The notes under the pieces: model-generated
The model's database searches: none
What the model was told of the DNA's origin: nothing
The model's input: the letters and a program-made list of their open reading frames with translations, nothing else
Position numbers and translations under genes: made by a program
From: Mesostigma viride
Taxonomy: Eukaryota > Streptophyta > Mesostigmatophyceae > Mesostigmatales > Mesostigmataceae
Direction of reading: 5' to 3'
NCBI GenBank assembly: GCA_009746045.1
Contig: RPFO01000485.1
Location: forward strand, 354,883 to 418,882
DNA length: 64,000 nucleotides
Part shown: piece after piece, positions 28,401 to 63,330 of the stretch
Layout of the letters: each line of letters begins with the position of its first letter
Numbering within the stretch: position 1 is the stretch's first letter

Positions 28401-31400
28401 GTGGCCGAGTCCGGTGAGGTGGCCTCCGTGGCCAGCAAGGGCACGGGCCGGAGCCGCTCTGGGCCCCTGGTCACGACGCAATCGCTGCATCACTCTGGTG
28501 CGTCCCTGGTCTATTCCGACTCATTCGAGGCATCCGAGGGGGTGACTGATGAGGTGGGCAGCAGCAGCGTCGACAGGGCCCCCCAGGCATCTTCCTCCAT
28601 TGCGGACGAGGCACACCGGGTGAGCAGTCAGCTGGGCGGAGGCAGCTCGGGTGTTCGTGGCGGCTCTGCTTCCATTGTGGATGACATGCAGGGCGTGACT
28701 GGGCAAATCGGTGAAGACACGATGGATGAGCAGAAGGGAGCCGCATCTGTGGTTGAGGATGATGGCCACTGGGATCAAAGCCGTATCGGGGAAGACACAT
28801 TTGATGCCCAGGGTGCAACCGCATCTATTGTGGATGACATGCAGGGCGTGACTGGGCAAATCGGTGAAGACACGATGGATGAGCAGAGGGGAGCGGCGTC
28901 TGTGGTTGAGGATGATGGCCACTGGGATCAAAGCCGTATCGGGGAAGACACATTTGATGCCCAGGGTGCAACCGCATCTATTGTGGAGGACATGCAGGGC
29001 GTGACTGGGCAAATTGGTGAAGACACGATGGATGAGCAGAGGGGAGCGGCGTCTATGGTTGAGGATGATGGCCGCTGGGATCAAAGCCGTATCGGGGAAG
29101 ACACATTTGATGCCCCCGGTGCAACCGCATCTATTGTGGATGACATGCAGGGCTTGACTGGGCAAATTGGTGAAGACACGATGGATGAGCAGAGGGGAGC
29201 GGCGTCTGTGGTTGAGGATGATGGCCACTGGGATCAAAGCCGTATCGGGGAAGACACATTTGATGCCCCGGGTGCAACCGCATCTATTGTGGACGACATG
29301 CAGGCTGTTCCTGGCCATACAAAGTCCTTTCTTGACACCGTGGATGAGTACGATGCGGAAGAAACCTCTGCCCCTGACATCGTGGATGAGGAGGATGAGC
29401 ACGAGGTGGCCAGCAGCATGAGTGGGGGTCATTCCAGCATCTCCACGGACGAAGCTGCCAGTGGCGCCGTGTCCTCTTCAAAGGACGGCAAGGGCAGCAC
29501 GACGGAGGCCATCACGGACGACCTGCCGAGCGCGGGGGCGCCCTCGAGGAGCAACGAGGGGTCCATCCCCACCGACACGGCATCCATCCGACAAGGTGAG
29601 GGACGCTGGCTTACCCCGCCAACACGAGGGTTGCTTGTTGGCTCAGGCGGGGGTTGTCGCGGTGTGCTGTATAAGCTGCGTGCTCACTGGGTACATGAGA
29701 ATGTGGGCCAGCTGCTTTTTGCTTAGTATTTGGGGCGGGCCATGTGAGAAATTTTCGGGGCTGTAGTCCTTGCAATCGCCATTTGTTTCTTGTTTCCTGC
29801 CTGAAGCCCACCCTGCCATGCATGGGCGTAGTCACGTCGACGACATACGATTTTTCATGGTGCGCATACGGGGTGTCATTGGATGCAAATGATTTGTACA
29901 TGCATGCATGCTTTTTCATGGGCGCTCTTCCAGTTCGGGTTTGTGCAGTGGAGGATGCTACCATGGTGGAAGGAACGTAGTGTAAGTTTCCGGCATTCAT
30001 GGCATGGCCACCTGGTTGTTGTATGTGTTGTATATGTTGTATATGTTGTATATGTTGTATATGTTGTATACGTTGTATATGTTGTATAAATAATAAACCA
30101 TGGCCCTGTTGCGCTGATGTGGATTTTGGTATCACAGGCACCACCAGCAGCTCCAAAGGGGGCAACGGTTCCATCCCCGAGGCGGTGCCCTCAGATGTGG
30201 AAGAGGAAGCGGAGATTGAGCTGTCGGATGTCCCGGACGACATCTCGGTGGTGGACGAGGAGGACGATCAAGGCGGTTACAGCGGTGAAGAAACGGAGGA
30301 CTTGCCCCTCCGCCCGACGTCCGGTGAGCCCCCATTCTTCCCCTAGGACTTGGAGTAGCGCCGCGTTTCTCCCTGTTCAAGGCTTTATGCACGCTCACTT
30401 GGCAGCCTTTGACCCCTTGGCACCCCCATGGTGGCACACGTACAAATGCTGCAGAACGCAGAGTCTTGCCCAACAAGGTCCTTTTTCACGACACATGCAT
30501 TTTGGGGCTCCGGATGTTGATGGGCTGTCTGTGTATGGATGTGCCGGGCTCTTGGCAGCATGACCATCGCCCCTGTCAACCCTATGTCCCTATTGACCCT
30601 TGACATTGTGTGGTCTGTGCAGCCGCGCGTGCCCCCCTGGCTGAAGACGCGGGCGCCAGCATTGCCTCAGAGGTAGAACCCAGCGGGGACATCCACTCGG
30701 TGGAGGAGGCGTACAGCGTGGACGACGAGGTGGCTGACGAGGCCCACTTGGGCGACAGCAGCGGCCAGCGGACAAGCTCACGTCTGCCTACGGGTCACCG
30801 CCCAGTGGCGGACGCCTCACTAACGGAGACTTTGGATGAGGTTGCTGCTGCTGGCAAAGCAACGTCGATGGATGAGGCACGCACAGGGAGCCGTGCATCT
30901 TCTTCGGGGGGCGATGAGGAGGCATTGGACCAGGACACCAGCGACCGTGCCGAGGATGGCGCGGGCAGCTTGGTGGTCTCACACGGTGGGCCGTTTGATG
31001 ATGGCGTCGTCATGCCGCAGGTGGCGGAGGCATACGCACAGTACCGGTCATCCCTGGAGGCAGCGCGCGGAGCAACCAGGTTGTCTGCCCACAGGACCCT
31101 GGCGGACTCCCTTGCATCGGTGGCGGACCAGCTGCTCTACCGCCTGCTGGCCGGCACGCTGGACCAGCTCAGCACGCGGCAGCTCCGCCCTGGTGAGTTG
31201 GGTGTCTAGAGACAGAGGGCGTCTAGAGACCAAGTACGAGAGTGTTAAATTGCTGCCCTTGGCAATGGTCTCAACATCCGTATGACTTTGGCATGCAACC
31301 TCTAGACTGGCATTGTTGGGCGGCTTATCCATGTCTGCGCTTGCATCACCGTTTATACGGCATGGAAAAATGGGAGGGAAGAATATGGGGTGGTTGGGTT

Positions 31401-38352: not shown

Positions 38353-38718
38353 GTTCGCTTAGTTCGGTCCGCGGCTTCCCCCACCTCCATCCATCCAGCA
38401 CAGAATATGTGCTACATGATCTCGCAACGAAGTCATTTTATAATTTAAATAATTTAATTTAACAACAGCACTGCGCAACTCGTGCTAAGTAGGTACACAA
38501 GGCCAGGAGCGAAACTCGCCCCGCGCGCTCGTCTCGAGGCGCTTTTTTGAATTTCTCCGAGGGACTCGCATGCAGTTTTGACATACTTTTTAAACTACTA
38601 TTTGTTTGTTTTTTCCACCAGGGTACACCCCCCAGAGCCTCCAAGATTTAGTATATTAATTTGCTTTGTTTGTTTTGTAAGGAAATCTTTACTCCGATCC
38701 ACATGCAGGCTGCCCTTG

Positions 38719-39845
38719 TGTCGCGCGCCGTTCCGATTCGCACGAGTATCGGCTTTACGCGGGGCCGCCACGCGGCCGGCCCGGGGGACGAGGCGAGGCA
38801 GCTATAGGCATTGCGCGTGTGCGAGTTGTTACGCCTTTGGCATTTGGGCCTTACGGGAGCAACGCATGCGCCGTAGTGCGACGCGCAGCACTGGGAGTTG
38901 ACAGCGGTACTGACAAGCGTCACCAAGAGGTCAGTGCCAACGCTGGCAAGCAGCACGCACTGGCTGCTGGACTACAACACGGACCAAGCTAGGCTGCCAG
39001 CCTGGCAATTATGCTTTATCGTGCAGGCTGAACATGCACGTGCACGCAAGCTGGCGCGTTATTGATCTCGAGAACTGTCCGCTGCAGGTAGATAATGTCG
39101 TGCAATATTGGCATTGATATTCGGCAGGCTGGCAAGCCGCTTTTGTGAATGCGACGAGGCAGCTTTTCTCGTCAGGGCCAGCTAGTTGTCGTACATGCTT
39201 GGTTGGTGATATAGTTGTTTGGCAAGCTCAGGGGTCGGCAAGTCGACACTGGAGTGATCTGCGACAAGGACATTTTGTCGTCTGGGATTTCTGGCCTACC
39301 CAGGTTGTCTAGTTGATTTTGTCGTCTAAAGAGAAAGTGCTAGATGATATGTTTCATATGCGGAACAGGGAGTCGTTGCAGACAACGACTTAGGATTTTG
39401 TGTACTTTTAGGTCTTGGTGCTGACCAAAGCCGAGTGCCACGGAGTAGCTTTGGTGTAATTGAAGCAGTATGGACGACAAAGCGGTTGTCGTCAGGATCA
39501 GATACTGAGCGTGGCTACGTGGTAAGGCTGACGCAAGATATTGCGTAAGTGTGAGGCATTCGTTGGGATAAGTGTGTGTTTCCACCAGGGCGTTGGATGT
39601 AGCTCTGTGTGGATCCTTGAACTCTGTCTTGGTCATGGTGGTGCGTGGCAAGTGTGGCCAGCCCTCCTTTCTTTCATCGAGCCCAGCCATTGCTGAAACA
39701 GAGCTGCCAAGTTAGGTAGAGTATTGGTAATAAAAACGTTATTTCATTTGCAACAAAGAACACAGTGTGAAGCCTAACCTAGTCATACCTCACTCTCAGG
39801 TCTCACCTTTTTGAGAAGTGCAGTTGGCACTGGCTTCTCGTCTTA
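38719..39845 (+). repeat. Split direct repeat A1 (left end of the element)
   Basis: 1,127 bp, identical to A2 at constant offset 9671 except for two mismatches (38916 and 38926). It should contain the promoter. Unlike a normal 5' LTR it is not followed by the B segment that follows A2. Directly downstream I see no clear tRNA-complementary TGG primer site. Confidence 0.9.
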
Positions 39846-40172
39846 TCCACACAGAGCTAGACTGAGAGTTGGTAGGTAAGCTTGGTCAAGGCTGAGGCCT
39901 CTTCCTGAATACTAGGAATAGAGGTAAAGCTGGCTGTGCAAGGCTGTCAAGGCAGGCAGCTTGCAAGAAGGTCCTGAAGCAGCATTGGTTTTCAGCTTTC
40001 AGGCAATTGTTTTCTTTCTCCTTGCCCTTGCATCTGGTGTGGTGCCAGCAAGTTGAAGGGGCCAAGTGGTGGCCCCTGTGGTGCATACTGATTTTGCACT
40101 ACGTCTGCTCACTCTGTAGCCCACTGATTGGTTGCAGAAACGGTGCTCACGAGAGCACAAGCACGAAGCTTG
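39846..40172 (+). other. Leader between A1 and gag
   Basis: Untranslated leader of the retrotransposon. It contains a good splice-donor-like GGTAAGCTT near 39876 and a TGG-containing string (GATTGGTTGCAG, about 40125) that could serve as a primer site, but neither is established. Confidence 0.4.
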
Positions 40173-43100
40173 ATGGCAGACCAAGATGGTCAACATCAAG
40201 GGGGCGCCAACCCCAACCAAGGCACGGTGGTGGATGGCGCACCGCGGCAGGGTGATGCTGCAGGCACGCAGGCATCCTTGCCAACTGGCGACAACGGCAA
40301 TGGGCCACTCGTCCCACCAGCAGCCTCGGGTTCCGGGATGGGCAATGGGGGGGGGTCGCCGATCGGAGTGGTGGCGTTGGTGGTGGTGGTGGTGACACAT
40401 CGGTCGTCAACGGAGGGCTGGGTGGCAGCGCGGCAGGTCCTCAAGATGGAACAGTACTTCCCATCACACCATCATCGCAGATACGGCTCAGCGGGTTGGC
40501 AGGCACCGGGCTAGCGCCGGGGCCAAGTGCCAGCCAGGGGGTGGGTGCGGATGTGTTGCAGCAGATTTTGCAACATGTAGCACAATCCCAACAACAGATG
40601 CAGCAGCAACAGCTGGCTATGCAGTTGCAGCAGCAGCAGACGGCGCAGTTGGCGGCGCAGATTGCAAGTCTGCACGCGACGTGGACCGCGCAAGCAACGC
40701 TGACACCAGCGCCGCACCTACCACAGCCGCAAGTGTTGCAGCCGCAGGCGCAAGTTTGGCAGCCCCAAGCGCAGGTGTTGCAGTCGCAGGTGCCTTTAAT
40801 GTCGCAGGCACCATCCGTGCAGCCACAGGCGCAAGCGCCACAGATGCAGGCGTCGCGGCAGCATGTGCCTGGGATGCCTAGTGCACAAACTGGGTTTTCT
40901 TTTGGCGTGCCGCATGCGCCGGCACCAACAAACCCAGCGACGCCACGGCTACAAACACCGTGGGTGCGGCCAGGCATCATTCCGGGATTGCAGCGAGGCA
41001 GTCCATACACGGTGGAACGAGGCTATGGGCTGGAGCCGAGGTTTGTGGCTACTCTACCAAGGACGCCAAGCATGCCGGTGGGCTACAATGGGTCGCCGAT
41101 TGAGGGATCCAAGGTGGGAATGCCGGTGCAAGCGCAGGTGGAGCTCAAGGACAGGTATACTGCTGACGGTGGGCTTGTTGACATCAACCAAGCCTATTGG
41201 AAATATAAGACTTGGCTGCACCAGCAGTATATCGTCACGCATAACCAGCTGCCGAAGTCCTTTGAGATGGACAACATCCCAATGTTTTTCTCGGGCAACA
41301 CGCAAAAGCTGGTGCAGCGGTGGGTCACAGGCTACCATGAGGTGGCGCTGAAGACGGGAAGATCCGATGTGTGGTACAGGCGCGACCAACAAGGCTTGCC
41401 GGACTACCAACACGTGGTATTTGACGTCGACCCTGCCGAGGAGCTGTGGGAACTTCTGCGCGCCAAGTACGCCCACTCCTCCACCAAGGCGGAGGCGGAG
41501 TGGCATGATTTCAAGGTGGGGGACAAGGAGTCGCCTGACGCCACGATGGACCGCCTGGAGGTCTTGCGGGATGAGGTCCCGGCATGGACGGAGGCGGAGG
41601 CGTGTGAGAAGTGGCTCAAGGCGTTGGGTCCAAAAGCTGCCATGATCCCACAACCTAGATTTGGTTGTCACTGGGACCTGGCCCAGCTGTGCACGGAAGT
41701 GCATGCATTCAACCGGCGACAGGCACGGGGTCTCCCGGACCTAGTGGAGCTGGTACGCCAAGAAGTCGCCCAAGCGCACAAGGGTAACAGGGTGGGTGGC
41801 GCGCAATCAGGCGGTGGAGGGTCCAGCGGTGGAAGGGGTGGACCAAGCAGCCGGCAGTTTGGGTCGCAGGCGGACAAGCCAGCCAGCGCGGGGGGCGACA
41901 ACACGGCCTCCAGCAGCACCGGCCAGGCGACGGCTGACCCGCACAAGGCATGTTGGATCTGCGGGAAGCCAGATCACGTGAAGCGGGCCTGCCCAGCCCA
42001 GTGCAAGAAGGAGCACGCGGCTGGAACGCCCGCCCATGCTCCGGCAGGGTGCAAGTACCCAGTGGTCACCAAGACCGTGCAAGCACATGCAGCGGCCATG
42101 GTGGCGGCCGACAGCACGCCAACAGAGCAGGCAGCTGAGGTATCGGCAGCGCCGGCGTCACCCAGCCAACCGAGTGGGCAGGCGGCGGGGATGGAAGCGT
42201 ATGACGCGTATACGCTGGTGGAGCAACCCGACTTGTTCTGGGCTCCTATCCATGCCGTCGAGGTCCAGGCAGCTACCCGAGGCAAGCAGGCACGGGCATT
42301 GCCGTCGTTCCTACCAACCACGGGAAATGGTGAGGGGGGGCCACCCCAGCTTCCTGCATCGTTCCCGGCAGGTTCAACCGGCGGTGAGTCATCGCTGCTG
42401 GAGCACCCGAACCCCGCCGACGCCGAGCAGCGGCGCAAGCTGCCACCATTCTTGCCAGTGGATGGAGTGATTGATGCTCCCTTGTTTTCTGCCAGGCAAG
42501 TGATTGATGGCTGCGGGCAGCGGGGCATCACGTTGGTGCACCAAGCAGCTGCGGCACTGCAGCGGTGCGCCGACAGCCTAGACGCACGCACATTGCCGGT
42601 GGCGGAAACTGCGCGGCGGGTCACCATGCCAGTTATGCCGGCAACCCCGGCAGACGTCCCAGCACCAACCATGCCCCGGGAAGCAACCCGCGAGGAGCGG
42701 ATGTCACGGGTGCCGAGGACAGTCACGGTGGCAAAGCACCCTGATGGGTCCCCGGCTATCGCTTTCCAGGCAATCAGCGAGGACGGCACTTGTTGGGGCC
42801 CTATGGTGTGCCCCAGCGCAAAGTCCGTCACCAAGCTGGATGGCGGAGCCGGGCCGCTCGTGATCACCATGGAGCTGGCCAAGATGTGTGGTGCGACCCG
42901 TGAGAACGGCGGGCTCATAGACAGCACCGTTCTCGTGGAGGGATGGAAAGGGCCAGCGGCGCGACCCGATGCAATGACTTCCATGCTGATCAACGTCATC
43001 CTCAACCCCACGGACCCAAAGCGGATGGCCTGCGTGGCTGTGCCGGCCTTGGTGGTCGACAGGTGTGGGTATGCAGCCCTTATCGGGATGGACGTCATGT

Positions 43101-43326
43101 ATCGCCTCGGGCTCATAATTGACCCTTGGCTGGAGGTTGCGACCTACCGCCGTGATTGGCAGGGGGAGGGGAAGCAAAAGGCGCTTCTTCCCATTCAGTG
43201 CAGCAGCGACCCGGAGCCTAACCCGCAGGGGGTGGTGTCGCTAGACGCGTGTGTGGCTGCAGTGGTGTCGCCCGCCAGCATAGAGGTGGAGCCAGGGCCG
43301 GATGCGGCTGAGAACTGGGGGGGGGC
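40173..43326 (+). CDS. Retrotransposon gag and aspartic protease polyprotein
   Basis: The Met at 40173 (MADQDGQHQGG) opens a Gly/Pro-rich start. The frame shifts by -1 at a run of G near 40346-40354, then stays open to 43501. Next come a Gln-rich helix, a Pro/Gln linker and a gag capsid-like region (NIPMFFSG, ELWELLRAKYA, about 41270-41730). A CCHC knuckle CWICGKPDHVKRAC follows at about 41951. A retropepsin-like domain has KLDGGAGPLVIT (DGGA where DTGA/DSGA is usual, about 42833) and ALIGMDVMYRLG (about 43078). The knuckle binds RNA and the protease would mature the polyprotein. The downstream Pol is entered by another -1 change at a nine-G run (43317-43325). I ended the feature at that junction; the nominal stop is at 43499-43501. 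Confidence 0.75.
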
Positions 43327-46300
43327 GTGTGGCCGGACGCGCAAGCGGTGCACATGGCGCAAGCGGCTAGCGACAAGCGCGCGCGCGATAGGCACCGGTG
43401 TGTGCTGCCTGCGGCGTTGCCAGCGCGGGATGCGCAGAGGCAAAGTTGGCTTGCCCAGGTTGCGCCCCTGCCACGCCTGCGCGATGTGCGCGCACGGGTG
43501 ATGGCGGCATGTCAGGCACTGCCCAAGGGTGCTGGGGGGAAGCGGCGCCAGCCGGGTGCCATCACGCAGTACCCCGGCTTTAGCGCAGAGGTGCTGGAAC
43601 GCATCCCGGACTTCGGGCGTGCCACCGTCGTGCTGGAGCTGTTCGCAGGTATGGGTGGCGGCATAGCCGGTTTCCTGAGCAGCGGGGGGGTATGCAGCAA
43701 GCTCATTGCGGTGGAGGCATCGCTCACAGCCAGGGCGGCATATTTGCACCACTGCGCTATCTTGTCGCAAGCATACCCAGCACAATTTCCTCCATCCGCC
43801 TGGGCTGATGTCTTCGGCGAGGGCACTCATGACGTGCGCTTCCTTGGGCAGCAGCAGCTGCGCCGCCTCATCTCACAACATGGCGAGGTAGGGTTGGTCA
43901 TTGCTGGCTGGGAGTGCCAAGGCATGAGCCAGGCTGGGCATGGCCGGGGCCTTGCCGACAGCAGGAGCGGCCTATTTTGGGACATGCTGCGCATTGTGGG
44001 CGAGCTCCAGCAGCTGCAGCAGGTGCCACCCGCCTACTTATTTGAAAACGTAGTGGCGGTGGACAGTCCCAGCCCCACTGTTCGGGAGGATTGGGGCACC
44101 ATTGTGGGTATTTTGGGGGAACCCGTGGTGTCGGACAATGCCGGGCTGGGAGGGAATACCCATCGGCTGCGCGCGTTCTGGACCAACATCGCTGGCCAAG
44201 GTTCTACGCAGGCGGTGATGCAGCATGTCGCTAGCCACATTGAGCTGCCACCGGTCGATGTCGTGTTGCCCAGTCAACTCACGGCGCAGTATGTGGAGCA
44301 CGATGATCAGGCACCCTACGCGCCCGTCAACAAGGCAGGCGCCCCCATGCGAGCACTGCCCACCCTTGTCAGTTACCAAGGGTCCCAGGCTTATCGTGAC
44401 CGGGGCAAGGGGCTTGTGTGGGAGCGTGCCACAGGTCTCTTGGTTCAGCCACCCGCGGGGTTTCGTGAACTAAGCATGGGCTTTGCCGAAGGTGCATCCG
44501 CCGCCCCAGGGCTCCTGGAGGTGGAGCGATGGTCGCTCATTGGCCAGGCCATGTCAGCCTGGCAGGTGGGGTACACCTTGCTAGCAGCGCAAGGTGTGCG
44601 GAGGGTGCAGCGGGTTGCACTTCCCGTCCATGCTGCGACTGCACAGGCGCAGAGTGAAACTTCTCCACCCACCGGTGCTGCGCCGGCTGGTGTGCCTAAG
44701 GCGGAGCGTGCAGGCGGCAGGGGCCAAGGGTGGTCCTACACCTGGCGCCAGGTATGGTCAGTCATCCTCATGACTGCGCTCCTCACCAGCTGTGTGTTCT
44801 CGGCGGCTCCGGCCTTTCAGTTCCTCGTGGCGAAGGCACAACGGCAGGTGGGAGAGCGAGGCATTACGCCGGGAGCGGCGGCATACATGCTGTTTCAGTC
44901 GGCGGCCGTGCGCGGTCCCACGGTGGCTGTGCACAATGTCTCGAGCGCAAGCGACCCGGCAGCAAACCATCAATGGAGCGTCTGTGAGCACCTCACAGCT
45001 GAGCAACGTGCGAGGCTGCTCAAGTGGCTGGAAGGTGCGCGCAACGCGTTTGCATTCAGCAGTCAAGAGCTGGGATGCTACAATGGTGGGCAGATGCGGG
45101 TCCCGCTGGACACCGATCAGCCACTGTTTCGCCGACAACACCGGCTGAGTCAAGCTGAGCTGGAGTTTGTGCAGCAACAATGCGAGGAGCTGGAGGCTGC
45201 TGGCATCATTCGGTCATCCACATCCAACTATGCGGCCGCGACCGTCGTGGCGCCCAAGAAGGATGCGGTGACAGGTGAATGGACTGGGATGCGCATGGCG
45301 ACGGACCTGCGGCAACTCAACGCACACACCCCGATGGACAGGTACCCCATGCCGCGAGTGGACGATGTGCTTGACCGGATATCGCCACGCGTGCAGTTCA
45401 TCTCATCCCTAGACCTCCGCAGTGGGTTTCACCAAATCCAAGTGGCGGAGGGTGACCAACGCAAGCTCGCGTTCTGGGGGGGCCACCGACTCTATGAGTG
45501 GGTCAGGATGCCTTTCGGGCATAGGAATGCGAGTGCCATCTTTCAGCGTGCCATGGATCAAGTGTTGAATGGCATGCCATTCGCTGCGTGTTACATTGAT
45601 GATGTGATCATCTTCAGTGAGACATTTGAGCAACACCTCCAGCACCTTGAGCAGGTGCGCATGGCACTGGCGCGAGCCAACCTGAAGCTGCATCCCGAGA
45701 AGTGTCGGTTTGCGCAGCGGAGCCTCGACTTCCTCGGACACCAGATCATTCCTGGCGGCAGAACTCCACAAGCGGCCAAGGTGGAAGCGATCGTCAACGC
45801 GGCAACGCCCACGGATGTGGCGGGTGTGCGGGCTTACCTGGGGCTGGCGGGGTATTACCGAGGTTATATCCCCAACTTCAGCACCAAGGTTAAGCCACTG
45901 ACGGAGCTGTTGAAGAAAGGTGCAGTCTGGGCATGGGGTCCGGCGCAGCAACGCGCCATTGAGACCATCAAGGCAGAGCTCACCTCAGCGCCGATACTCC
46001 GTCAGCCCGACTATGCCCAGCCATTTGTGCTATACACGGATTGGTCCAGGGTTGGACTTGGTGCTGTGTTGGCACAGAAGGACGTGCATGGCAAGGAACA
46101 TGTGGTGGCGTATGCCAGCAGGAGCAACAACACGGCTGAGGCCAAGTACTCATCGTATGAGGGCGAGGCTCTGGCCGTGGTGTGGGCCATCAAACATTTT
46201 CGGCCATACTTGTTCGGGCGTCAGTTCACGCTGGTCACCGACCATCAGCCACTGCAGTGGTTGATGACAAGTGCCAATCTGACTGGCAAGCTGGCGCGCT

Positions 46301-48240
46301 GGGCCATGATTATTCAAGAATATAACATGACCATTGTACACCGCGCTGGGGTGGACCATTCCAATGCCGATGTCTTATCACGCTATGCTTTGGCAACGTC
46401 AGAGGACCGGACGGGGGCGCGAGCGCAGGGCGCGGAGGGACCACAGGGCTCAGTCGTCTTTGTCAACGCAGCCGGGCCATGCGATTCCGAGTCGCGATGG
46501 CTTTCCTGCAGTGATGCCGTGGCGGAGTTTGCGTGCTACGCCAATCCCGTACGGCCAGCGGCTTTCACGCCATCCCAGGGCGTGATATTTCTTCCTTTGG
46601 CTGAAGACACGCTTGCGCAGCCGGTGGATCCGGCGAGCATGGGCTGTGTGGTGCTGCATGCTGCCGCCAGTCACGCCATTGCGGTGGAGTGCTGCGCTGG
46701 GGACGTGTGGCTGGATGGGAGGGTTCTCGAGCGGGTGCAGGGTTTGCCTGCCTCTCCAGCCCCTGCTGACTGGACACCGACGCAGAGGCAAGCCGAGCAA
46801 GAGCGCGTGGAGCGCCGGGCTGTGAATTATACCTGGGAGGGCAACCAGGTCTACAAGCTTGTGGGGCGCCGCAAGCTGGTCGTGCCGCCCCCTGACAAGC
46901 GTGCTGCCCTCGTTGCACATTACCATGAGCGGTTCGGGCACATGGGTGCAAACCGCACAGGTGCCATGGTGCGTGGGGTCTATTGGTGGGCGGGCATGAA
47001 GCATGCCATCGCACGGCAGGTAGCCAGTTGTGCTGAGTGTGCTCGCGCGAAAGCGCGTTTCAACCTGGACCATCATGACAAGGAGCTCATGAGCTTGCCC
47101 ATCCGGGGCTTGTTCTACCGGTGGCACGTCGACTTGTGTGGGCCCTTTGAGCTCAGCACTTCCGGCAACCGTTACGTCATGGTGTGTGTGGAATCGTTCA
47201 GCAAGTGGCTGGAACTGATTCCCCTACCCGACAAGCACGCCGCCACCACAGCCACCTACTTCCTGGATGTTATTGCTCGGTATGGGGCACCGGCGGAGGT
47301 GGTTTCAGACCAAGGCGGGGAATTTCGTGGGGAATTCCAAGAGCTATTGGATTCCTGCTCCATCGATCATCGGCACACGTCGCGGGAGCACCCTCAGGCC
47401 AATGGACTGGCTGAGCGTTTGGTTCAGACAGTCAAACAGGCGCTGCGCAAATGGGCGTTGCAAGCAGCACGTGTGGCCACCTGGGATAGGGAACTACCCT
47501 GGATCGCCATGGGCTACCGGATGAGCCCACAAGAATCCCTCGCCCAGTTCTCCCCCTATTTTCTGCTCTTTGGTCGGGCACCATTGTTGCCCTCTGAGGT
47601 GCAGGAAGCTCACCCCCAGCCGATTCAATGGGATGACGCCAATGAGTGGCTGCGGGAGGTTGTGGCGCGCGCCGCCACATTTAAGAAGGTGATGCCCATC
47701 GCGATGAACAATCTGTTGATCGCGCAGCACCGCGACACACTGCGGTACGCCCAGCGACGGGGTGGCAAGTATATGGCCAGGCGGCTGCAGTTCCACCCCG
47801 GCCAGTATGTGTTTCTGCGGACTCAACCCCAACACACGCTGGACGTCACGGCCGGGCCCACCATCCTTCGCATTGTGGAGATTAAGCCTTCGGGGGTGGC
47901 CATCCTCGAAGGTGCGGATGGTAGTAAGACCACTGACAATGTGTCGAACCTGTCTCCTTGCTCCATGCCCCACCTGGCACGGAGCATCCAGCCGCACACC
48001 GCTAGGCGCATCCGCGATGCGCAGTGTCAAATTTGTCACCGGGTCGACCAGCCTGAGGTCATGTTGCTGTGTGATCACTGCAACTGCGGCTGGCATCTTC
48101 ACTGCCTTCAACCCCCTCTGTCTCAGGTACCTGAGGGTTCCTGGTTTTGCCCTGTGTGCATTGCTGCGGGGTTCACCAACCATGCGATTCAAGCAGCTAC
48201 TGCCACTTTGTTGCTCGCTACCCAGCAAAGGACTTGGTAG
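43327..48240 (+). CDS. Methyltransferase - reverse transcriptase - RNase H - integrase - PHD polyprotein
   Basis: One uninterrupted frame of about 1,637 codons. (1) C5-cytosine methyltransferase, about 43610-44600: motif I LELFAGMGGGIAGF, motif IV AGWECQGMSQAG with the catalytic Cys codon at 43915, motif VI FENV (44041), motif VIII THRLRAFW, motif IX RELSMGF, motif X IGQAMSAWQ. (2) A hydrophobic segment (44752-44835). (3) Reverse transcriptase with SSLDLRSGFHQI, MPFGHRNA and YIDD (45592-45603). (4) RNase H with YTDWS, YEGEALAVV, VTDHQPL. (5) Integrase with HHCC and DDE residues Asp 47131, Asp 47308, Glu 47413 (codon starts). (6) A GPY/F-like stretch. (7) PHD finger 48025-48159 (C-x2-C, C-x2-C, H-x2-C, C-x2-C). 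The first in-frame codon used is not a likely start, so expression is probably by frameshift from gag. Confidence 0.85.
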   Translation: MWPDAQAVHMAQAASDKRARDRHRCVLPAALPARDAQRQSWLAQVAPLPRLRDVRARVMAACQALPKGAGGKRRQPGAITQYPGFSAEVLERIPDFGRATVVLELFAGMGGGIAGFLSSGGVCSKLIAVEASLTARAAYLHHCAILSQAYPAQFPPSAWADVFGEGTHDVRFLGQQQLRRLISQHGEVGLVIAGWECQGMSQAGHGRGLADSRSGLFWDMLRIVGELQQLQQVPPAYLFENVVAVDSPSPTVREDWGTIVGILGEPVVSDNAGLGGNTHRLRAFWTNIAGQGSTQAVMQHVASHIELPPVDVVLPSQLTAQYVEHDDQAPYAPVNKAGAPMRALPTLVSYQGSQAYRDRGKGLVWERATGLLVQPPAGFRELSMGFAEGASAAPGLLEVERWSLIGQAMSAWQVGYTLLAAQGVRRVQRVALPVHAATAQAQSETSPPTGAAPAGVPKAERAGGRGQGWSYTWRQVWSVILMTALLTSCVFSAAPAFQFLVAKAQRQVGERGITPGAAAYMLFQSAAVRGPTVAVHNVSSASDPAANHQWSVCEHLTAEQRARLLKWLEGARNAFAFSSQELGCYNGGQMRVPLDTDQPLFRRQHRLSQAELEFVQQQCEELEAAGIIRSSTSNYAAATVVAPKKDAVTGEWTGMRMATDLRQLNAHTPMDRYPMPRVDDVLDRISPRVQFISSLDLRSGFHQIQVAEGDQRKLAFWGGHRLYEWVRMPFGHRNASAIFQRAMDQVLNGMPFAACYIDDVIIFSETFEQHLQHLEQVRMALARANLKLHPEKCRFAQRSLDFLGHQIIPGGRTPQAAKVEAIVNAATPTDVAGVRAYLGLAGYYRGYIPNFSTKVKPLTELLKKGAVWAWGPAQQRAIETIKAELTSAPILRQPDYAQPFVLYTDWSRVGLGAVLAQKDVHGKEHVVAYASRSNNTAEAKYSSYEGEALAVVWAIKHFRPYLFGRQFTLVTDHQPLQWLMTSANLTGKLARWAMIIQEYNMTIVHRAGVDHSNADVLSRYALATSEDRTGARAQGAEGPQGSVVFVNAAGPCDSESRWLSCSDAVAEFACYANPVRPAAFTPSQGVIFLPLAEDTLAQPVDPASMGCVVLHAAASHAIAVECCAGDVWLDGRVLERVQGLPASPAPADWTPTQRQAEQERVERRAVNYTWEGNQVYKLVGRRKLVVPPPDKRAALVAHYHERFGHMGANRTGAMVRGVYWWAGMKHAIARQVASCAECARAKARFNLDHHDKELMSLPIRGLFYRWHVDLCGPFELSTSGNRYVMVCVESFSKWLELIPLPDKHAATTATYFLDVIARYGAPAEVVSDQGGEFRGEFQELLDSCSIDHRHTSREHPQANGLAERLVQTVKQALRKWALQAARVATWDRELPWIAMGYRMSPQESLAQFSPYFLLFGRAPLLPSEVQEAHPQPIQWDDANEWLREVVARAATFKKVMPIAMNNLLIAQHRDTLRYAQRRGGKYMARRLQFHPGQYVFLRTQPQHTLDVTAGPTILRIVEIKPSGVAILEGADGSKTTDNVSNLSPCSMPHLARSIQPHTARRIRDAQCQICHRVDQPEVMLLCDHCNCGWHLHCLQPPLSQVPEGSWFCPVCIAAGFTNHAIQAATATLLLATQQRTW

Positions 48241-48258
48241 CGAGGGGGGGGAGAAAAG
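48241..48258 (+). promoter_or_regulatory. Polypurine tract after the Pol stop
   Basis: The stop TAG (48238-48240) is followed by C and then GAGGGGGGGGAGAAAAG, a long purine run of the kind that primes plus-strand DNA synthesis. Its last seven bases AGAAAAG belong to the B1/B2 repeat, so they recur at 49517-49523. Confidence 0.6.
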
Positions 48259-48387
48259 TGGGCAGCACTAGTGGGGTAAGGCTAGCATGTGGCCCATCGA
48301 TCACCGGCCCATGCAGCCATACCTCATGAGGGCCAACGAGGTCGTGGGCTACTGTCAGTGCAGGGAGTTTGGCACGAGTACGCGACA
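48252..48387 (+). repeat. Split direct repeat B1
   Basis: 136 bp from AGAAAAGTGGG to CGCGACA, apparently identical to B2 at offset 1265. B1, the dinucleotide GC and the start of A2 form the 14-bp palindrome GCGACAGCTGTCGC, as expected if two element ends had been joined. Confidence 0.9.
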
Positions 48388-48389
48388 GC

Positions 48390-49516
48390 TGTCGCGCGCC
48401 GTTCCGATTCGCACGAGTATCGGCTTTACGCGGGGCCGCCACGCGGCCGGCCCGGGGGACGAGGCGAGGCAGCTATAGGCATTGCGCGTGTGCGAGTTGT
48501 TACGCCTTTGGCATTTGGGCCTTACGGGAGCAACGCATGCGCCGTAGTGCGACGCGCAGCACTGGGAGTTGACAGCGGTACTGACATGCGTCACCAGGAG
48601 GTCAGTGCCAACGCTGGCAAGCAGCACGCACTGGCTGCTGGACTACAACACGGACCAAGCTAGGCTGCCAGCCTGGCAATTATGCTTTATCGTGCAGGCT
48701 GAACATGCACGTGCACGCAAGCTGGCGCGTTATTGATCTCGAGAACTGTCCGCTGCAGGTAGATAATGTCGTGCAATATTGGCATTGATATTCGGCAGGC
48801 TGGCAAGCCGCTTTTGTGAATGCGACGAGGCAGCTTTTCTCGTCAGGGCCAGCTAGTTGTCGTACATGCTTGGTTGGTGATATAGTTGTTTGGCAAGCTC
48901 AGGGGTCGGCAAGTCGACACTGGAGTGATCTGCGACAAGGACATTTTGTCGTCTGGGATTTCTGGCCTACCCAGGTTGTCTAGTTGATTTTGTCGTCTAA
49001 AGAGAAAGTGCTAGATGATATGTTTCATATGCGGAACAGGGAGTCGTTGCAGACAACGACTTAGGATTTTGTGTACTTTTAGGTCTTGGTGCTGACCAAA
49101 GCCGAGTGCCACGGAGTAGCTTTGGTGTAATTGAAGCAGTATGGACGACAAAGCGGTTGTCGTCAGGATCAGATACTGAGCGTGGCTACGTGGTAAGGCT
49201 GACGCAAGATATTGCGTAAGTGTGAGGCATTCGTTGGGATAAGTGTGTGTTTCCACCAGGGCGTTGGATGTAGCTCTGTGTGGATCCTTGAACTCTGTCT
49301 TGGTCATGGTGGTGCGTGGCAAGTGTGGCCAGCCCTCCTTTCTTTCATCGAGCCCAGCCATTGCTGAAACAGAGCTGCCAAGTTAGGTAGAGTATTGGTA
49401 ATAAAAACGTTATTTCATTTGCAACAAAGAACACAGTGTGAAGCCTAACCTAGTCATACCTCACTCTCAGGTCTCACCTTTTTGAGAAGTGCAGTTGGCA
49501 CTGGCTTCTCGTCTTA
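48390..49516 (+). repeat. Split direct repeat A2
   Basis: Gap-free copy of A1 (offset 9671). It starts TGTCGCGCGCC and ends CTCGTCTTA. It is followed immediately by B2, whereas A1 is followed by the leader. Confidence 0.95.
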
Positions 49517-49652
49517 AGAAAAGTGGGCAGCACTAGTGGGGTAAGGCTAGCATGTGGCCCATCGATCACCGGCCCATGCAGCCATACCTCATGAGGGCCA
49601 ACGAGGTCGTGGGCTACTGTCAGTGCAGGGAGTTTGGCACGAGTACGCGACA
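49517..49652 (+). repeat. Split direct repeat B2 (right end of the element)
   Basis: Copy of B1. Its last seven bases CGCGACA are the inverted complement of the first seven bases of A1. The next four bases, CTTG, repeat those before A1. Confidence 0.95.
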
Positions 49653-49656
49653 CTTG

Positions 49657-50689: not shown

Positions 50690-50858
50690 TAACCTTCGGA
50701 AAAGATCCTGGTTCCGGCCAGCACCCACTGCCCAGGTTCTTGGCGTGCCACCGACTCTGTCTATAATTCAAGCAAAGCCCTCCACATAAGACCTATGCAT
50801 GTGTGTGTCGATGTCACCCTTGGTGCTAGGAAGCCGGCACTGCCCGAGAGTTTATTAA
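50690..50858 (-). pseudogene. LINE reverse-transcriptase remnant, distal piece
   Basis: Read on the minus strand, one frame gives STKGDIDTHMHRSYVEGFA, a stretch like the segment after the reverse-transcriptase palm in LINEs. It continues the remnant at 52558-53504 if the TTAA element between them is ignored. Frameshifts and stops are present. Confidence 0.5.
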
Positions 50859-52557
50859 CCCCTAAATGGTCTGGCTGCCGATTTTCCGCCTAAAACTGAG
50901 TTACAGCCGACACGTCGGCCCCTTCTCGGGGGACCAAATGCCGCGAAAACTATTGAGAATTAGGAAAAGTTTAGCTGAGAAGAATGAAAGTTTATAAGTT
51001 TCTCCAGAACATGATACTAGGGTTTGCTATATTTTGACCAAGTTTAACAGGTGTTCCAGACCGTCAAAGTACAAGGGGTCAGGGTACTTTTTCACGTACA
51101 ACGTGCATTCCGGAAAACGACGACCTGGCCATGGCGGCTTGCGCCCACGCATGGCATTTACGTTTGCGTTCGAATTTTCTGGCCAAACTTAGGATATTGA
51201 TTTTATACGTCCTAAAGATGATACAGGCCAATTTTTGGTTCGCGGGAATGCCATTTGATAGGTGTCGGCAGCGTTCTTGCTGGAAAAAACTGCGTTCAGG
51301 CCGGACGATAGAAACGTTGACAGCAATACCTTTCCGGCGTATTTTAAAGGATATATTGGTTTCTTTGTACTTTTTATGATACATGGTAGTCGTAAACGTG
51401 CAAGGGTGGCCAGAAATCGCCGAATCCAGCGACCATGCTGCACAACTTTGGTGTGCCGAAATGCGCCATTTTGCGGCCACCGCCTGGGCCAAGGTAACGC
51501 CATCCATGCCTGGTAAAGCTTAATCATCGTTTTCCAATCGATGTTTGACGTTTATATATACGTTCTAGCTTGTGTAGCACATTCTTTTTTCATTATTCAT
51601 GCTCTTTCTTGACCCTGGCCTGGCCCCTTTCTAAAACACCCTTCTTAGATGCTTCCCTCAGTCAGTTGACCTGCCACAGTGTGATGGTGATAAGTTTTAG
51701 AGGCTGTATGGGTTTGAATACCTCCATATATGTTTGTTATACATTTCCCACACACATATTGCATGAGTGTGAGGCAGTTGGCTGGTCTCTGTGGCATCAT
51801 CAAGCATGTAACCGGTGAGTAGAAGCTTCCCATTGTCAGCATGTGCCACCAGGTGTGCTGGCCATCACCTTGCAAGCTATAGCAGCTGAGGCCTAGTTTA
51901 TCCTTGCTAGGGCAAGCTGAAATAGGCTTAAAATCACTAGTTTGTTGGTGGCTGCCTCCTAGAATGCATGACTTGCGTAGGGTATCCGTACCACGTTACC
52001 TACGTGCATGGACAAGGTGGCACCTGCACATAGGTGCCATGTAAGGGCAGTGTGATGATGCAGTTATGTTTCCCCATCATTGTGGAAGGGAAATGTATTG
52101 TGTGGCATGGTTGGGGGCCATATTAGTAGGTATTAGTAGGTAGTATGCCCACTCCTACCCCCTTGGTTGCTTTTTACCAACGGTACCCCTATGGGCTGTA
52201 CTGGGTGTAACTGCTGGTATACCCACCCAAATGATGACCCCAATGGCTCAAACTGTTCAGCAACTAATTGTTTATCATCCCTGAAGTGGTAGGTGCCTAG
52301 CTCTTACAACATAATTCAAAATGCACATTCTACCAAAAATGAAAACGCTCGTCTTGACCCCCCTGACTTTGACGGCAGTTATACATGGCCTACCCTGCAT
52401 ATATGTAAGGTTGTGATATACCAACCCGAAGGGCAACTCATGGACATGCTTGGCCCCCAAGGACAGCCATTGGATATGGGTGGGTTGGATGGCATCTGGT
52501 TTGCAAAATTGTGAAGTTACAGCCGATGCATCGGCAGTATTTCTGCCCATTTAGGGG
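50859..52557. mobile_element. Non-autonomous TTAA-target DNA transposon, copy 1
   Basis: 1,699 bp flanked by TTAA (50855-50858 and 52558-52561). Terminal inverted repeats CCCCTAAATGG ... CCATTTAGGGG, with CTGCCGAT repeated just inside. Each end also has a subterminal palindrome (GCCGACACGTCGGC left, GCCGATGCATCGGC right). TTAA targets and CCC-starting ends are typical of piggyBac-type elements. No transposase is recognisable; a minus-strand frame of 142 codons (51079-51507) is kept in both copies but matches nothing I know. It is inserted in a LINE remnant. Confidence 0.8.
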
Positions 52558-53504
52558 TTAAAACGCTCGGTGTAGCCGGGAACCGCTACGCCATCCAGGT
52601 GTAAAAGCGGCGGTGGGCCGGCGACCGTCAACTGAGCCCCACTGAGGGCCATCGCTTCAGTCTTCTTGCTGATTTCCAGGCCAACTGCTCGTGCTTCCAA
52701 GTTCCAGGGCCAGGCAGACTGTCCAACCAGAGCTGGACATCCTTGCTCGGTATCCTCGATGAGAATGGCCGGTATCATCGCCTTAGATCAATTCTGCCAG
52801 GTGGCCGGGTATTCCGTCCCATTCGCATTGCCACCCGTGCTGGGGTCATTGTGAATGACTAGGCCAGGCCCGGATGCCCTACAATGCTGGCGACGATAGG
52901 CTTGCGTATGCATGACACAGCAGTCCACAACGACGATGAACGGTTACGTGTAAATTGATTAATTAATTGTTTAATTAATGGATTAATGATGAACAGGTAT
53001 GGTGACAGAACACAATTCCTTGCCACACACCTGCTTGGATCGAGGGGGCAAGGGCAGGTGGTGCCATACGGCGTACGGACGTAGTGATGCCGTAGACCCC
53101 TCATACAACTAATTGCGAAGGACAGCTACAAACGGCTTGTCGGAACCTGGTAGCGAGCAAGTATATTCCAAAGGCCAGTACTATTCCAGGCGGGCAGGCC
53201 AGAATACCGTGAGTCAAAGGCCTTGTGCACATGACATAAGTCCACGAAGACCACGTGGACAGGGTCAGTACTCACCCAGGCTCAGCCGCCACGCTTCCTC
53301 CACAAGCTGGCGTGCAGCAAAGACAACCATAACAACGTATTACAGCCGCCGGCGGCGGAACGATCAAAGCCCATCTGGGTCTGTCCTAAGTGCTCATGTA
53401 AAGCAATTGCCGGAGCCGGTTAATGGGTTAAGGACCATTCTCATGAAATCCTTAAGCGCAGAGCTTTGAAGGCCAACACAGGCTATATCGGTAATTACTC
53501 GGGT
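52558..53504 (-). pseudogene. LINE reverse-transcriptase remnant, central piece
   Basis: Minus-strand frames, with breaks, contain the ordered motifs of a non-LTR reverse transcriptase: FVDLCHVHKAFDS (like VDLKKAFDS), then CVLSPYLF (like GCVLSPLLF), then LEARAVGLEISKKTEAM (like WGLRINTKKTK). The catalytic YADD box is not preserved in the parts I can read. The gene continues upstream at 63336 and downstream at 50858, split by two later insertions. Confidence 0.65.
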
Positions 53505-53509
53505 CCGGG

Positions 53510-54292
53510 TGTAACAAGCAAAAATGACTTTGTTGTTACATCCTTTGTTTTGTGAATGTTTGGCTTTTATTTGAGGACTTTTGGATCAGTATTGAGAAAG
53601 TTATGAGGTTTCTAAGACGACGGTACTTGGAGCTGATACTTTGTCAACCAACTGATAGGAACCCTCATTGGTCGTGGCCTGATCCACGTAGGGTTGTAGT
53701 TTGTTGGCTGATACTACTGATAGGAGCCCTCATTGGTCGTGGCCTGATCCACGTGGGGTTGTAGTTTGTTAGTTGGTACTATTGAGTCTTAAATGCTCCT
53801 TTGGGACTTCAGTGCTTACGACAGATTTAGGATCTCATGGAAAGATTCTGCCAGGCTGTGTGTGGTGTTGTTCTGTTCTGTGTGACTAGGATGGATACGA
53901 AGATCTTGTATAGAATCCCATGGTTCTGATTGGTTCTCTTCAGGCGAAGGTTGGAGCAAGTTCGACAAGCACGTCGATATCAAGGACGTGGGGTCGCCAT
54001 TGTTGGAACGTTGGTTTTGATTCACCATGGTATAATAAAGCTTGGCTTTGTTGTCCAATCCATAAGAGCCCCTTGGCTATAGTAGACGTCCTTCAGTTCC
54101 ACAGAGGTCGTCTACACACGAACTTGTCTTTGTGTCTACAAGGGGTGTGATTCCCTAAATCACGTGCTGTGGAATTTCCATCTCAACGTTGCTCGGATAC
54201 TTGAAGTTCTGCAACTCCGGAAAGCAACCCAGGTAAAAAGATCTTTCATATTGGACTGTGGATGATGATGATGATCATTTTTAGTCGTTACA
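53510..54292 (+). repeat. Left LTR
   Basis: Starts TGTAACAAGCAAAAATGACT and ends AGTCGTTACA. It contains an internal duplication around TTGGTCGTGGCCTGATCCAC. Visible differences from the right LTR are near 53945, 54007, 54080 (an extra TAG) and 54121. Confidence 0.95.
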
Positions 54293-54753: not shown

Positions 54754-55430
54754 AAAAGGGTGTTGCATAAGCCATTATTAACGCACCACTAAGTCACCGT
54801 CCCTTTCTTTAAATTCGTGCAATATTTCATTGACAAGCGTCCTTACTTACGGGCTTTCGGCTGGCTGGCCGCATCGTGCTGAAGTCCGACCACCGCCCTG
54901 TCTGTCGTGGCTGCTGACGCCGCAGTCTCTGCCTAGCTCCAAACATCTTTATATATCGGCATTACGCAAGTGTTGCTACGTTTCGAGCAGGGCCATGCGG
55001 AGTGTTGGGCCAGTAGCTCAGCAGGTCCGGCTCCAGAATCCTGCTCGGAGCTGTCTTTTTTCCCTGCAGGCTCTGTTTTCAGCCAGGCTGACATGGCGCT
55101 ACGGGTTATGGCTGAGCCGACGCACTGTTGCTGCCGACGGCACCTATCACCCGGTTTCCGGGTTGCGGCTGCACGCACGACCACCACCGCGACCGCCTGA
55201 CGACGTCGCCGTCTAAGGTTGTTTTTTTTCCCGGTGCCGGCTGCTTTTCTTTGACGACATTTTTACGGTGTGGCTCAGGTTACACCTCGTGTCTTTTGAG
55301 GGTGGCTCCGGATGAGCGGACAGTAGGGATTCATGGCTGCCCTTTTTACGCCAGGTTCCTTTTGCACTCACTTGACAATCTTTCAGGATCCTTTTCTTCG
55401 GTGCATGGGCAGCCTACCCTTGCTGTTTAA
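54754..55430. other. Interior of the LTR element, no recognisable domain
   Basis: Open frames of up to 128 codons are present but resemble nothing I recognise. A string resembling a tRNA A box (TAGCTCAGCAGG, 55014-55025) followed by a T-run is noted separately and rejected. Confidence 0.4.
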
Positions 55431-57132
55431 CCCCTAAATGGTCTTGCTGCCGATTTTCCGCCAAAAAGTGACTTACAGCCGATTTGTCGGCACCTACTCG
55501 GGGGACCAGTTTGCGAGAATACTATTGGGAATTAGGAAACGTTTAGCTGAGAAGAATGAAAGTTTATAAGTTTCTCCAGAACATGATACTAGGGTTTGCT
55601 ATATTTTGACCAAGTTTAACAGGTGTTCCAGACCGTCAAAGTACAAGGGGTCAGGGTACTTTTTCACGTACAACGTGCATTCCGGAAAACGACGACCTGG
55701 CCATGGCGGCTTGCGCCCACGCATGGCATTTACGTTTGCGTTCGAATTTTCTGGCCAAACTTAGGATATTGATTTTATACGTCCTAAAGATCATACAGGC
55801 CAATTTTTGGTTCGCGGGAATGCCATTTGATAGGTGTCGGCAGCGTTCTTGCTGGAAAAAACTGCGATCAGGCCGGACGATAGAAACGTTGACAGCAATA
55901 CCTTTCCGGCGTATTTTAAAGGATATATCGGTTTCTTTGTACTTTTTATGATACATATTAGTCGTAAACGTGCAAGGGTGGCCAGAAATCGCCGAATCCA
56001 GCGACCATGCTGCACAACTTTGGTGTGCCGAAATGCGCCATTTTGCGGCCACCGCCTGGGCCAAGGTAACGCCATCCATGCCTGGTAAAGCTTAAGCATC
56101 GTTTTCCTATCGATGTTTGACGTTTATATATACGTTCTAGCTTGTGTAGCACATTCTTTTTGCATTATTCATGCTCTTTCTTGACCCTGGCCTGGCCCCT
56201 TTCTAAAACACCCTTCTTAGATGCTTCCCTCAGTCAGTTGACCTGCCACAGGGTGATGGTGATAAGTTTTAGAGGCTGTATGGGTTTGAATACCTCCATA
56301 TATGTTTGTTATACATTTCCCACACACATATTGCATGAGTGTGAGGCAGTTGGCTGGTCTCTGTGGCATCATCAAGCATGTAACCGGTGAGTAGAAGCTT
56401 CCCATTGTCAGCATGTGCCACCAGGTGTGCTGGCCATCACCTGGAAAGCTATAGCAGCTTAGGCCTAGTTTATCCTTGCTAGGGCAGGCTGAAATAGGCT
56501 TAAAATCACTAGTTTGTTGGTGGCTGCCTCCTAGAATGCATGCCTTGCGTAGGGTATCCGTACCACGTTACCTACGTGCATGGACAAGGTGGCACCTGCA
56601 CATAGGTGCCATGTAAGGGCAGTGTGATGATGCAGTTATGTTTCCCCATCATTGTGGAAGGGAAATGTATTGTTTGGCATGGTTGGGGGCCATATTAGTA
56701 GGTATTAGTAGGTAGTATGCCCACTCCTTACCCCTTGGTTGCTTTTTACCAACGGTACCCCTATGGGCTGTACTGGGTGTAACTGCTGGTATACCCACCC
56801 AAATGATGACCCCAATGGCTCAAACTGTTCAGCAACTAATTGTTTATCATCCCTGAAGTGGTAGTAGGTGCCTAGCTCTTACAACATAATTCAAAATGCA
56901 CATTCTACCAAAAATGAAAACGCTCGTCTTGACCCCCCTGACTTTGACGGCAGTTATACATGGCCTACGATGAATATATGTGAGGTTGTGATATATCATG
57001 GCTTAGGGCAACTCATGGACATGCTTGCCCCCCAAGGACAGCCATTGGATATTGCTAGGTTGTACAGGGGCTGGTTTACAAAATAGGTGAGTTACTGCCG
57101 ATTTATCGGCAGCATTTCCGCCCATTTAGGGG
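55431..57132. mobile_element. Non-autonomous TTAA-target DNA transposon, copy 2
   Basis: 1,702 bp flanked by TTAA (55427-55430; 57133-57136), with the same ends as copy 1 (50859-52557) and high identity throughout. Subterminal palindromes are GCCGATTTGTCGGC and GCCGATTTATCGGC. It lies inside the LTR retrotransposon. The largest differences from copy 1 are in the last 150 bases and the first 80 bases. Confidence 0.85.
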
Positions 57133-57136
57133 TTAA

Positions 57137-62550: not shown

Positions 62551-63330
62551 TGTAACAAGCAAAAATGACTTTGTTGTTACATCCTTTGTTTTGTGAATGT
62601 TTGGCTTTTATTTGAGGACTTTTGGATCAGTATTGAGAAAGTTATGAGGTTTCTAAGACGACGGTACTTGGAGCTGATACTTTGTCAACCAACTGATAGG
62701 AACCCTCATTGGTCGTGGCCTGATCCACGTAGGGTTGTAGTTTGTTGGCTGATACTACTGATAGGAGCCCTCATTGGTCGTGGCCTGATCCACGTGGGGT
62801 TGTAGTTTGTTAGTTGGTACTATTGAGTCTTAAATGCTCCTTTGGGACTTCAGTGCTTACGACAGATTTAGGATCTCATGGAAAGATTCTGCCAGGCTGT
62901 GTGTGGTGTTGTTCTGTTCTGTGTGACTAGGATGGATACGAAGATCTTGTATAGAATCCCATGGTTCTGATTGGTTCTCTTCAGGCTAAGGTTGGAGCAA
63001 GTTCGACAAGCACGTCGATATCAAGGACGTGGGGTCGCCATTGTTGCTACGTTGGTTTTGATTCACCATGGTATAATAAAGCTTGGCTTTGTTGTCCAAT
63101 CCATAAGAGCCCCTTGGCTATAGACGTCCTTCAGTTCCACAGAGGTCGTCTACACACGAGCTTGTCTTTGTGTCTACAAGGGGTGTGATTCCCTAAATCA
63201 CGTGCTGTGGAATTTCCATCTCAACGTTGCTCGGATACTTGAAGTTCTGCAACTCCGGAAAGCAACCCAGGTAAAAAGATCTTTCATATTGGACTGTGGA
63301 TGATGATGATGATCATTTTTAGTCGTTACA
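62551..63330 (+). repeat. Right LTR
   Basis: Nearly identical to 53510-54292. It ends CGTTACA and is followed by the CCGGG target duplication. Confidence 0.95.

Follow-up and report, generated by a model that had tools for sequence, protein, structure and literature searches.

A young Ty3/Gypsy element of Mesostigma viride with a DNMT3-like cytosine methyltransferase in its Pol frame and DIRS-like split repeats

The window analysed here, a stretch of 64,000 nucleotides of Mesostigma viride DNA, contains a whole Ty3/Gypsy element on the forward strand (38719-49652), flanked at both ends by the target duplication CTTG (38715-38718 and 49653-49656). The element begins with a left terminal repeat, A1, which spans 1127 bp (38719..39845) and starts with TGTCGCG, followed by ORF1 (40496..43501), encoding a Gag-like protein with a CCHC knuckle (zf-CCHC E=0.0031, 18 bits, below the cut-off of 20.8) and, by motif only, a protease-like stretch (~42820-43120). 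The Pol open frame (43312..48240; 1642 aa from stop to stop) overlaps ORF1 at 43312-43501, and a G GGG GGG heptamer (43318..43324), the single one of X XXY YYZ type found within the overlap, constitutes a candidate −1 frameshift site. Pol encodes a C5-cytosine methyltransferase (MTase) domain resembling DNMT3 (~43624..44646, borders taken from relatives), a reverse transcriptase (RT; RVT_1, 45253..45747, Pfam E=1.6e-29), an RNase H (RT_RNaseH, 46009..46323, E=2.5e-38), an integrase (IN) with H2C2 zinc domain and DDE core (rve; 46885..47394, E=1.3e-13 and 4e-12) and a C-terminal PHD finger (48025..48159, E=9.1e-9). Beyond Pol, a putative polypurine tract, GAGGGGGGGG (48242..48251), lies immediately 5' of repeat B1 (136 bp, 48252..48387), which is followed by A2 (1127 bp, 48390..49516) and by B2 (136 bp, 49517..49652), a copy with 0 differences from B1 that terminates in CGCGACA. 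The B1/A2 joint forms a strand-symmetric 16-bp palindrome, CGCGACA-GC-TGTCGCG (48381..48396).

The earlier note on this DNA had proposed a C5 MTase with ordered motifs inside a Gypsy-type Pol, in one continuous frame with RT, RNase H and integrase. A profile search of the region against the DNA_methylase family found a C5 MTase match and fold comparison bore it out, the motifs being recovered in order with the catalytic Cys, ENV and RxR and with ECQ as motif IV; the continuous frame was likewise confirmed, and includes the PHD finger too. Neither ORF1 nor Pol gave a Pfam match to a tyrosine recombinase at E<=1 or to an env-like domain. Pol had no chromodomain match at E<=1, the PHD finger occupying the position after the integrase where chromoviruses carry that domain, and the minus-strand primer motif TGG was not found directly 3' of A1. 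Elsewhere in the window, direct repeats of 99.1% identity (53510-54292 and 62551-63330) enclose 8.3 kb in which no ORF reaches 260 aa and may mark a non-autonomous LTR element; a further direct repeat of 1.7 kb is 96% identical (50855-52561 and 55427-57136), and two tandem arrays consist of 24 copies of 36-bp units (26677-27546) and four copies of 153-bp units (28674-29304).

The window element is young, multi-copy and recently active, its A1 and A2 repeats differing at 2 of 1127 positions. Genome searches covered a 440 Mb assembly of 2243 contigs, in which 123 of 415 candidates were scored, so that all counts are lower bounds. A PF00145 search returned at least 28 MTase matches that score 43.4-45.1 bits, including six within full-length 1642-aa frames, and at least 21 further matches at 35.2-35.4 bits; the four of the latter that were fetched all belonged to a second family, F2, distinct from the family of the window element, F1. 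Element ends were inspected in 20 of the 28, and the MTase region in two more, C1956, with an MTase 98% identical, and C1107, which represents a further family, F3, with an MTase 64% identical. Residues common to F1 and F2 amount to 65% in the MTase and 81% in RT, and the A repeat as genome query gave at least 40 matches. The linkage of MTase and RT is therefore genuine. That the composite Pol might be an assembly chimera, for which nothing was found in favour, can practically be dismissed, because the identical frame recurs among these matches at independent loci with different target duplications.

The MTase is nearest to the DNMT3 class, judging from its highest profile similarity and from motifs that are not permuted as in DRM. 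Profile comparison gave E values of 4.4e-19 for DNMT3A, 1.2e-9 for HhaI and 2e-4 for DNMT2, the DRM-type structure 4onj matching at 7.8e-15 over positions 2-136 only; none of the 57 chains matched by the MTase profile at E<=0.1 was a DNMT1 chain. Fold comparison of a predicted model (mean pLDDT 67.7) likewise placed the domain nearest DNMT3. As estimated from substitution ratios, purifying selection on the MTase is shown between the Mesostigma families, with pN 0.239, pS 0.710 and omega ~0.13 for F1 versus F2 and omega ~0.06 for F2 versus F3, synonymous sites being near saturation in both comparisons; the ratio was not computable for F1 versus F3, nor for RT, RNase H and integrase of F1 versus F2. 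Within 11 near-identical F1 copies the variable sites of the MTase (7 synonymous, 5 other) are not numerous enough to judge selection.

We infer the activity and the purpose of the domain from these sequence features, and the possibility that it is a catalytically dead relic, or a chaperone binding RNA or DNA, has to be weighed. Such a role would agree with ECQ in place of PCQ at motif IV, with the weak single-sequence scores of the domain and with the inactivity in yeast of the related Klebsormidium nitens domain, a result judged inconclusive by its authors (PMC5890265). However, the catalytic Cys, the ENV Glu and RxR are retained, purifying selection has acted between families, and ECQ is frequent among clade members (33 of the 79 rows), so that we regard either role as unlikely.

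The distribution of the domain among related Pol proteins points to an old association. A search with the MTase retrieved 18 proteins, and from an RT-IN search the best 120 of 355 proteins at E<=1e-100 were taken, 117 of them new. When the window Pol is added to the 135 distinct proteins among the matches listed, 81 of the set carry an MTase in the same ORF (62 of the 117 new ones), a share that is no census, since the searches began from an MTase-bearing query and kept best matches only. The MTase lies between RNase H and integrase in 59 of these 81 (one without RT) and before RT in 17, while three have MTase and integrase without RT and two the MTase alone. Two of the proteins, P0057 and P0080, are named as Klebsormidium nitens and two, P0058 and P0059, are labelled Tetstr1; P0096, from Tetrabaena socialis, retains a short MTase remnant. 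In P0005, P0006, P0011 and P0016 a long extension follows the PHD finger, in some with a DPFSGAG-like stretch by eye; this extension gave no Pfam match above cut-off in P0007 or P0011. A scan of IMG/VR with the whole Pol gave no match, and one with the MTase profile 12 loci; in the one inspected, L015, the other ORFs resemble phage genes by eye.

In a tree of RT, RNase H and integrase (129 rows, quick method), all 75 MTase-bearing rows, which include Mesostigma, Klebsormidium and (judging by the label) Tetraselmis, fell within one clade of 115 rows (SH-aLRT 99). In 58 rows of this clade the MTase follows RNase H and in 17 it precedes RT; another 36 are without MTase and have RT starting fewer than 450 residues into the frame, so that another ORF could hold the domain, and four further rows lack it. 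The 58 rows with the MTase after RNase H group in one 61-row clade (SH-aLRT 99), together with three lacking the domain. Two smaller trees concur, one of Pol (support 100/100) and a 21-row MTase tree (89/87) in which five rows without RT were placed by inference. Two short rows of the 81 were dropped from the larger MTase trees. In the quick tree of the remaining 79, the group with the MTase after RNase H requires four changes and that with the MTase before RT two; this tree contained five rows whose architecture was open, as well as two long branches, and in the 72-row tree that drops those seven the two arrangements separate with one change (support 100/98). Since the carriers form one clade and the 21-row and 72-row MTase trees split likewise, the domain was most likely acquired a single time and, if the tree is rooted on the outgroup, then shifted once from a place preceding RT to one following RNase H. 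The agreement of MTase and Pol trees on the place of the domain suggests a long-held part rather than one repeatedly captured. It is dispensable for some members, as P0080, a Gypsy Gag-Pol from K. nitens that lies in the same clade but lacks the MTase, shows that it can be lost.

The terminal architecture of the F1 element, A1-coding-B1-GC-A2-B2, corresponds to DIRS-like split repeats (A-coding-B-A-B). A plain reading of A as an ordinary LTR is ruled out, B occurring both 5' and 3' of A2. Among the 20 copies inspected, nine have the long form, with B-GC-A and then A|B, and four terminate after a single B (C1835, C1837, C1579 and C1813; in C1813 an internal deletion extends into B and the remaining B could be either), whereas in seven the 3' end is lost or lies beyond the fetched stretch. 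A 4-bp target duplication was present in all seven copies of the 20 with both outer ends readable, four long and three short (CTTG, TACA, CGGA, AACG, AGTT, GGCC and TACT). This count leaves out copies in which an end is missing or broken, among them C1690b, whose 3' end breaks inside B2 and shows no duplication, C446, with a disrupted B2, and C777 and C1468, in which the A1 start was not found in the fetched stretch. The B1-GC-A2 joint is invariant and palindromic in nine of nine long copies; the A2|B2 joint takes seven forms in these nine copies, all from this one genome, namely CTTA (two copies), CTT (two), CTTAA, CTTATC, CTTATCCA, a T7-G11 insertion and a deletion of ~139 bp of A. Two of these forms are extended by TC or TCCA, the bases 3' of A1, and the G run of the insertion resembles the polypurine tract before B1. 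This anatomy is shown for F1 alone, since the one 2.1-kb stretch read past Pol in F2, at C58, contained no B-A-B repeat.

How such repeats are copied bears directly on the life cycle of the element. A templated circularisation of DIRS/PAT type, in which the internal B-A joint guides faithful copying of the split repeats and the resulting cDNA is the substrate of the MTase, as de Mendoza and colleagues proposed, with no end joining, would be suggested by the A1-B1-A2-B2 anatomy, which matches PAT-type elements (PMC4157794), and by the DIRS-like repeats described for the K. nitens element (PMC5890265). We consider this route rather unlikely, since it predicts a constant joint, whereas A|B varies among copies and includes A1-border bases and a tract-like G run; moreover, a tyrosine recombinase match is lacking in ORF1 and Pol, and the 4-bp duplications indicate a DDE integrase. 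Instead, the variable A|B joints look like end-joined cDNA termini. Their forms fit a cDNA in which B-GC-A serves as the LTR, the tract marks one border and the sequence 3' of A1 the other, and integrase acts at a site within that LTR.

On balance we think it probable, though with limited confidence, that the window holds a young element of the KnitGypsy-Dnmt3 kind, from an old MTase-bearing clade, which inserts end-joined cDNA and methylates its own DNA. Frameshifting by −1 at the G GGG GGG heptamer would yield Gag-Pol and thereby package the MTase together with RT. Plus strands would begin at the tract before B1, making B-GC-A the LTR of the linear cDNA, and joining of its A and B ends, in a 2-LTR circle or in a concatemer, both of which would yield the same product, would generate the variable A|B joint. 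Integrase may then cleave the internal palindrome of the repeat on both strands, which would produce TG...CA ends and a duplication of 4 bp, as spumavirus (PFV) integrase cleaves a palindrome at LTR-LTR junctions with the loss of two bases (PMC1180852). One LTR would give A-coding-B, and two would give A-coding-B-A-B, the form retaining both transcript ends; short copies could also form once an element has inserted, if its B1 and B2 recombine. The MTase would act on the double-stranded DNA of the element, after reverse transcription and before insertion, so that this DNA might be tolerated in a CG-methylating nucleus, and the PHD finger may assist in tethering the insertion complex to chromatin. 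A more speculative extension, conceivable but somewhat doubtful, holds that in this clade, with the integrase site placed within the LTR and not at the cDNA ends, only end-joined DNA (2-LTR circles or concatemers) gives replication-competent copies, and that the MTase is kept because such DNA has to last as a nuclear episome, methylated against recognition. If so, MTase and circle-type insertion would constitute one linked strategy, parallel to that of MTase-bearing DIRS elements.

Self-methylation of element DNA is a suggestion already published (PMC5890265), and the traces of methylation in the genome permit no strong claim on its occurrence in vivo, since C-to-T transitions are weakly enriched at CG and the element shows no CpG depletion. 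In 11 copies, excluding C1956 with its 546 mismatches, C-to-T changes affected 20 of 1514 CG sites as against 26 of 5011 cytosines in other contexts (odds ratio 2.6, p 0.002), a weak signal, and observed/expected CpG was no lower in the element (0.78) than in its flanks (0.67 and 0.53). The host itself encodes a DNMT1 (L022), in one long exon that matches RFD and, slightly under cut-off, BAH. A DNMT1 exon of this assembly agrees at 100% identity with EukProt Mesvir1/7057 across the 500 residues compared, in keeping with M. viride (Streptophyta, Mesostigmatophyceae) as host. This CG excess, and the union of PHD finger and integrase in one polyprotein, would also agree with an MTase that targets host DNA where the element inserts and, together with the PHD finger, methylates around each new copy, causing early silencing with less damage to the host. 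We hold this to be unlikely, as the MTase is found before RT and also before integrase, which favours neither partner. Five other loci of the genome (L002, L021, L024, L026 and L027) contain dcm-type MTase ORFs, one kind with ten equal-scoring matches, and their adjoining ORFs are alike between loci by eye; perhaps they represent endogenous virus-like insertions. The youth of the F1 copies makes both self-methylation and circle-type integration directly testable.

A Gypsy Pol with a Dnmt3 has been published as KnitGypsy-Dnmt3 of Klebsormidium nitens (de Mendoza et al. 2018, PMC5890265), and P0057 (KFL_009030040) is probably this element. The proposal in the earlier note of a further, possibly independent case consequently does not hold: independent capture is unlikely because P0057 has the same order, MTase-RT-RNaseH-IN, and falls in the same 115-row clade, although the two are not sister rows. 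Both elements share a Gypsy Pol with RT, RNase H and DDE integrase, an unrearranged Dnmt3-class MTase in the Pol ORF, A-coding-B-A-B repeats and, according to PMC5890265, an MTase under purifying selection, here seen between families. They differ in host class, and their MTases are 38% identical over 274 columns; the Mesostigma element has a PHD finger, whereas the partial K. nitens record stops before that point, and target duplications and joint variability are not described for KnitGypsy-Dnmt3 in the passages of PMC5890265 consulted; the main text of that paper makes no mention of Mesostigma, Tetraselmis or PHD. SymbioDIRS-Dnmt3 and SymbioLINE-Dnmt also carry an MTase within a retrotransposon, and the former shares the A-coding-B-A-B repeats, but these are tyrosine-recombinase or LINE elements with an unrelated Pol (PMC5890265). 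PAT/DIRS retrotransposons have split direct repeats, and DIRS-group elements bear a putative methyltransferase domain (PMC4157794); the Mesostigma element, in contrast, has a DDE integrase and a 4-bp duplication. The likeness to spumavirus integrase on 2-LTR circles extends to a palindromic junction and two bases lost between CA and TG, one cut giving both processed ends at once, but in spumavirus palindrome and LTR-LTR junction coincide (PMC1180852), while in Mesostigma the palindrome lies inside the repeat. A literature search of titles and abstract openings, with most subscription journals outside its coverage, returned neither an MTase after RNase H nor Gypsy integration from joined cDNA. 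The kind of element is thus already known; what is new is the MTase clade, the probable single relocation within Pol and the target duplications and split-repeat joints of the Mesostigma copies, and a Gypsy case described from one species becomes a clade with an MTase in 75 of 115 rows.
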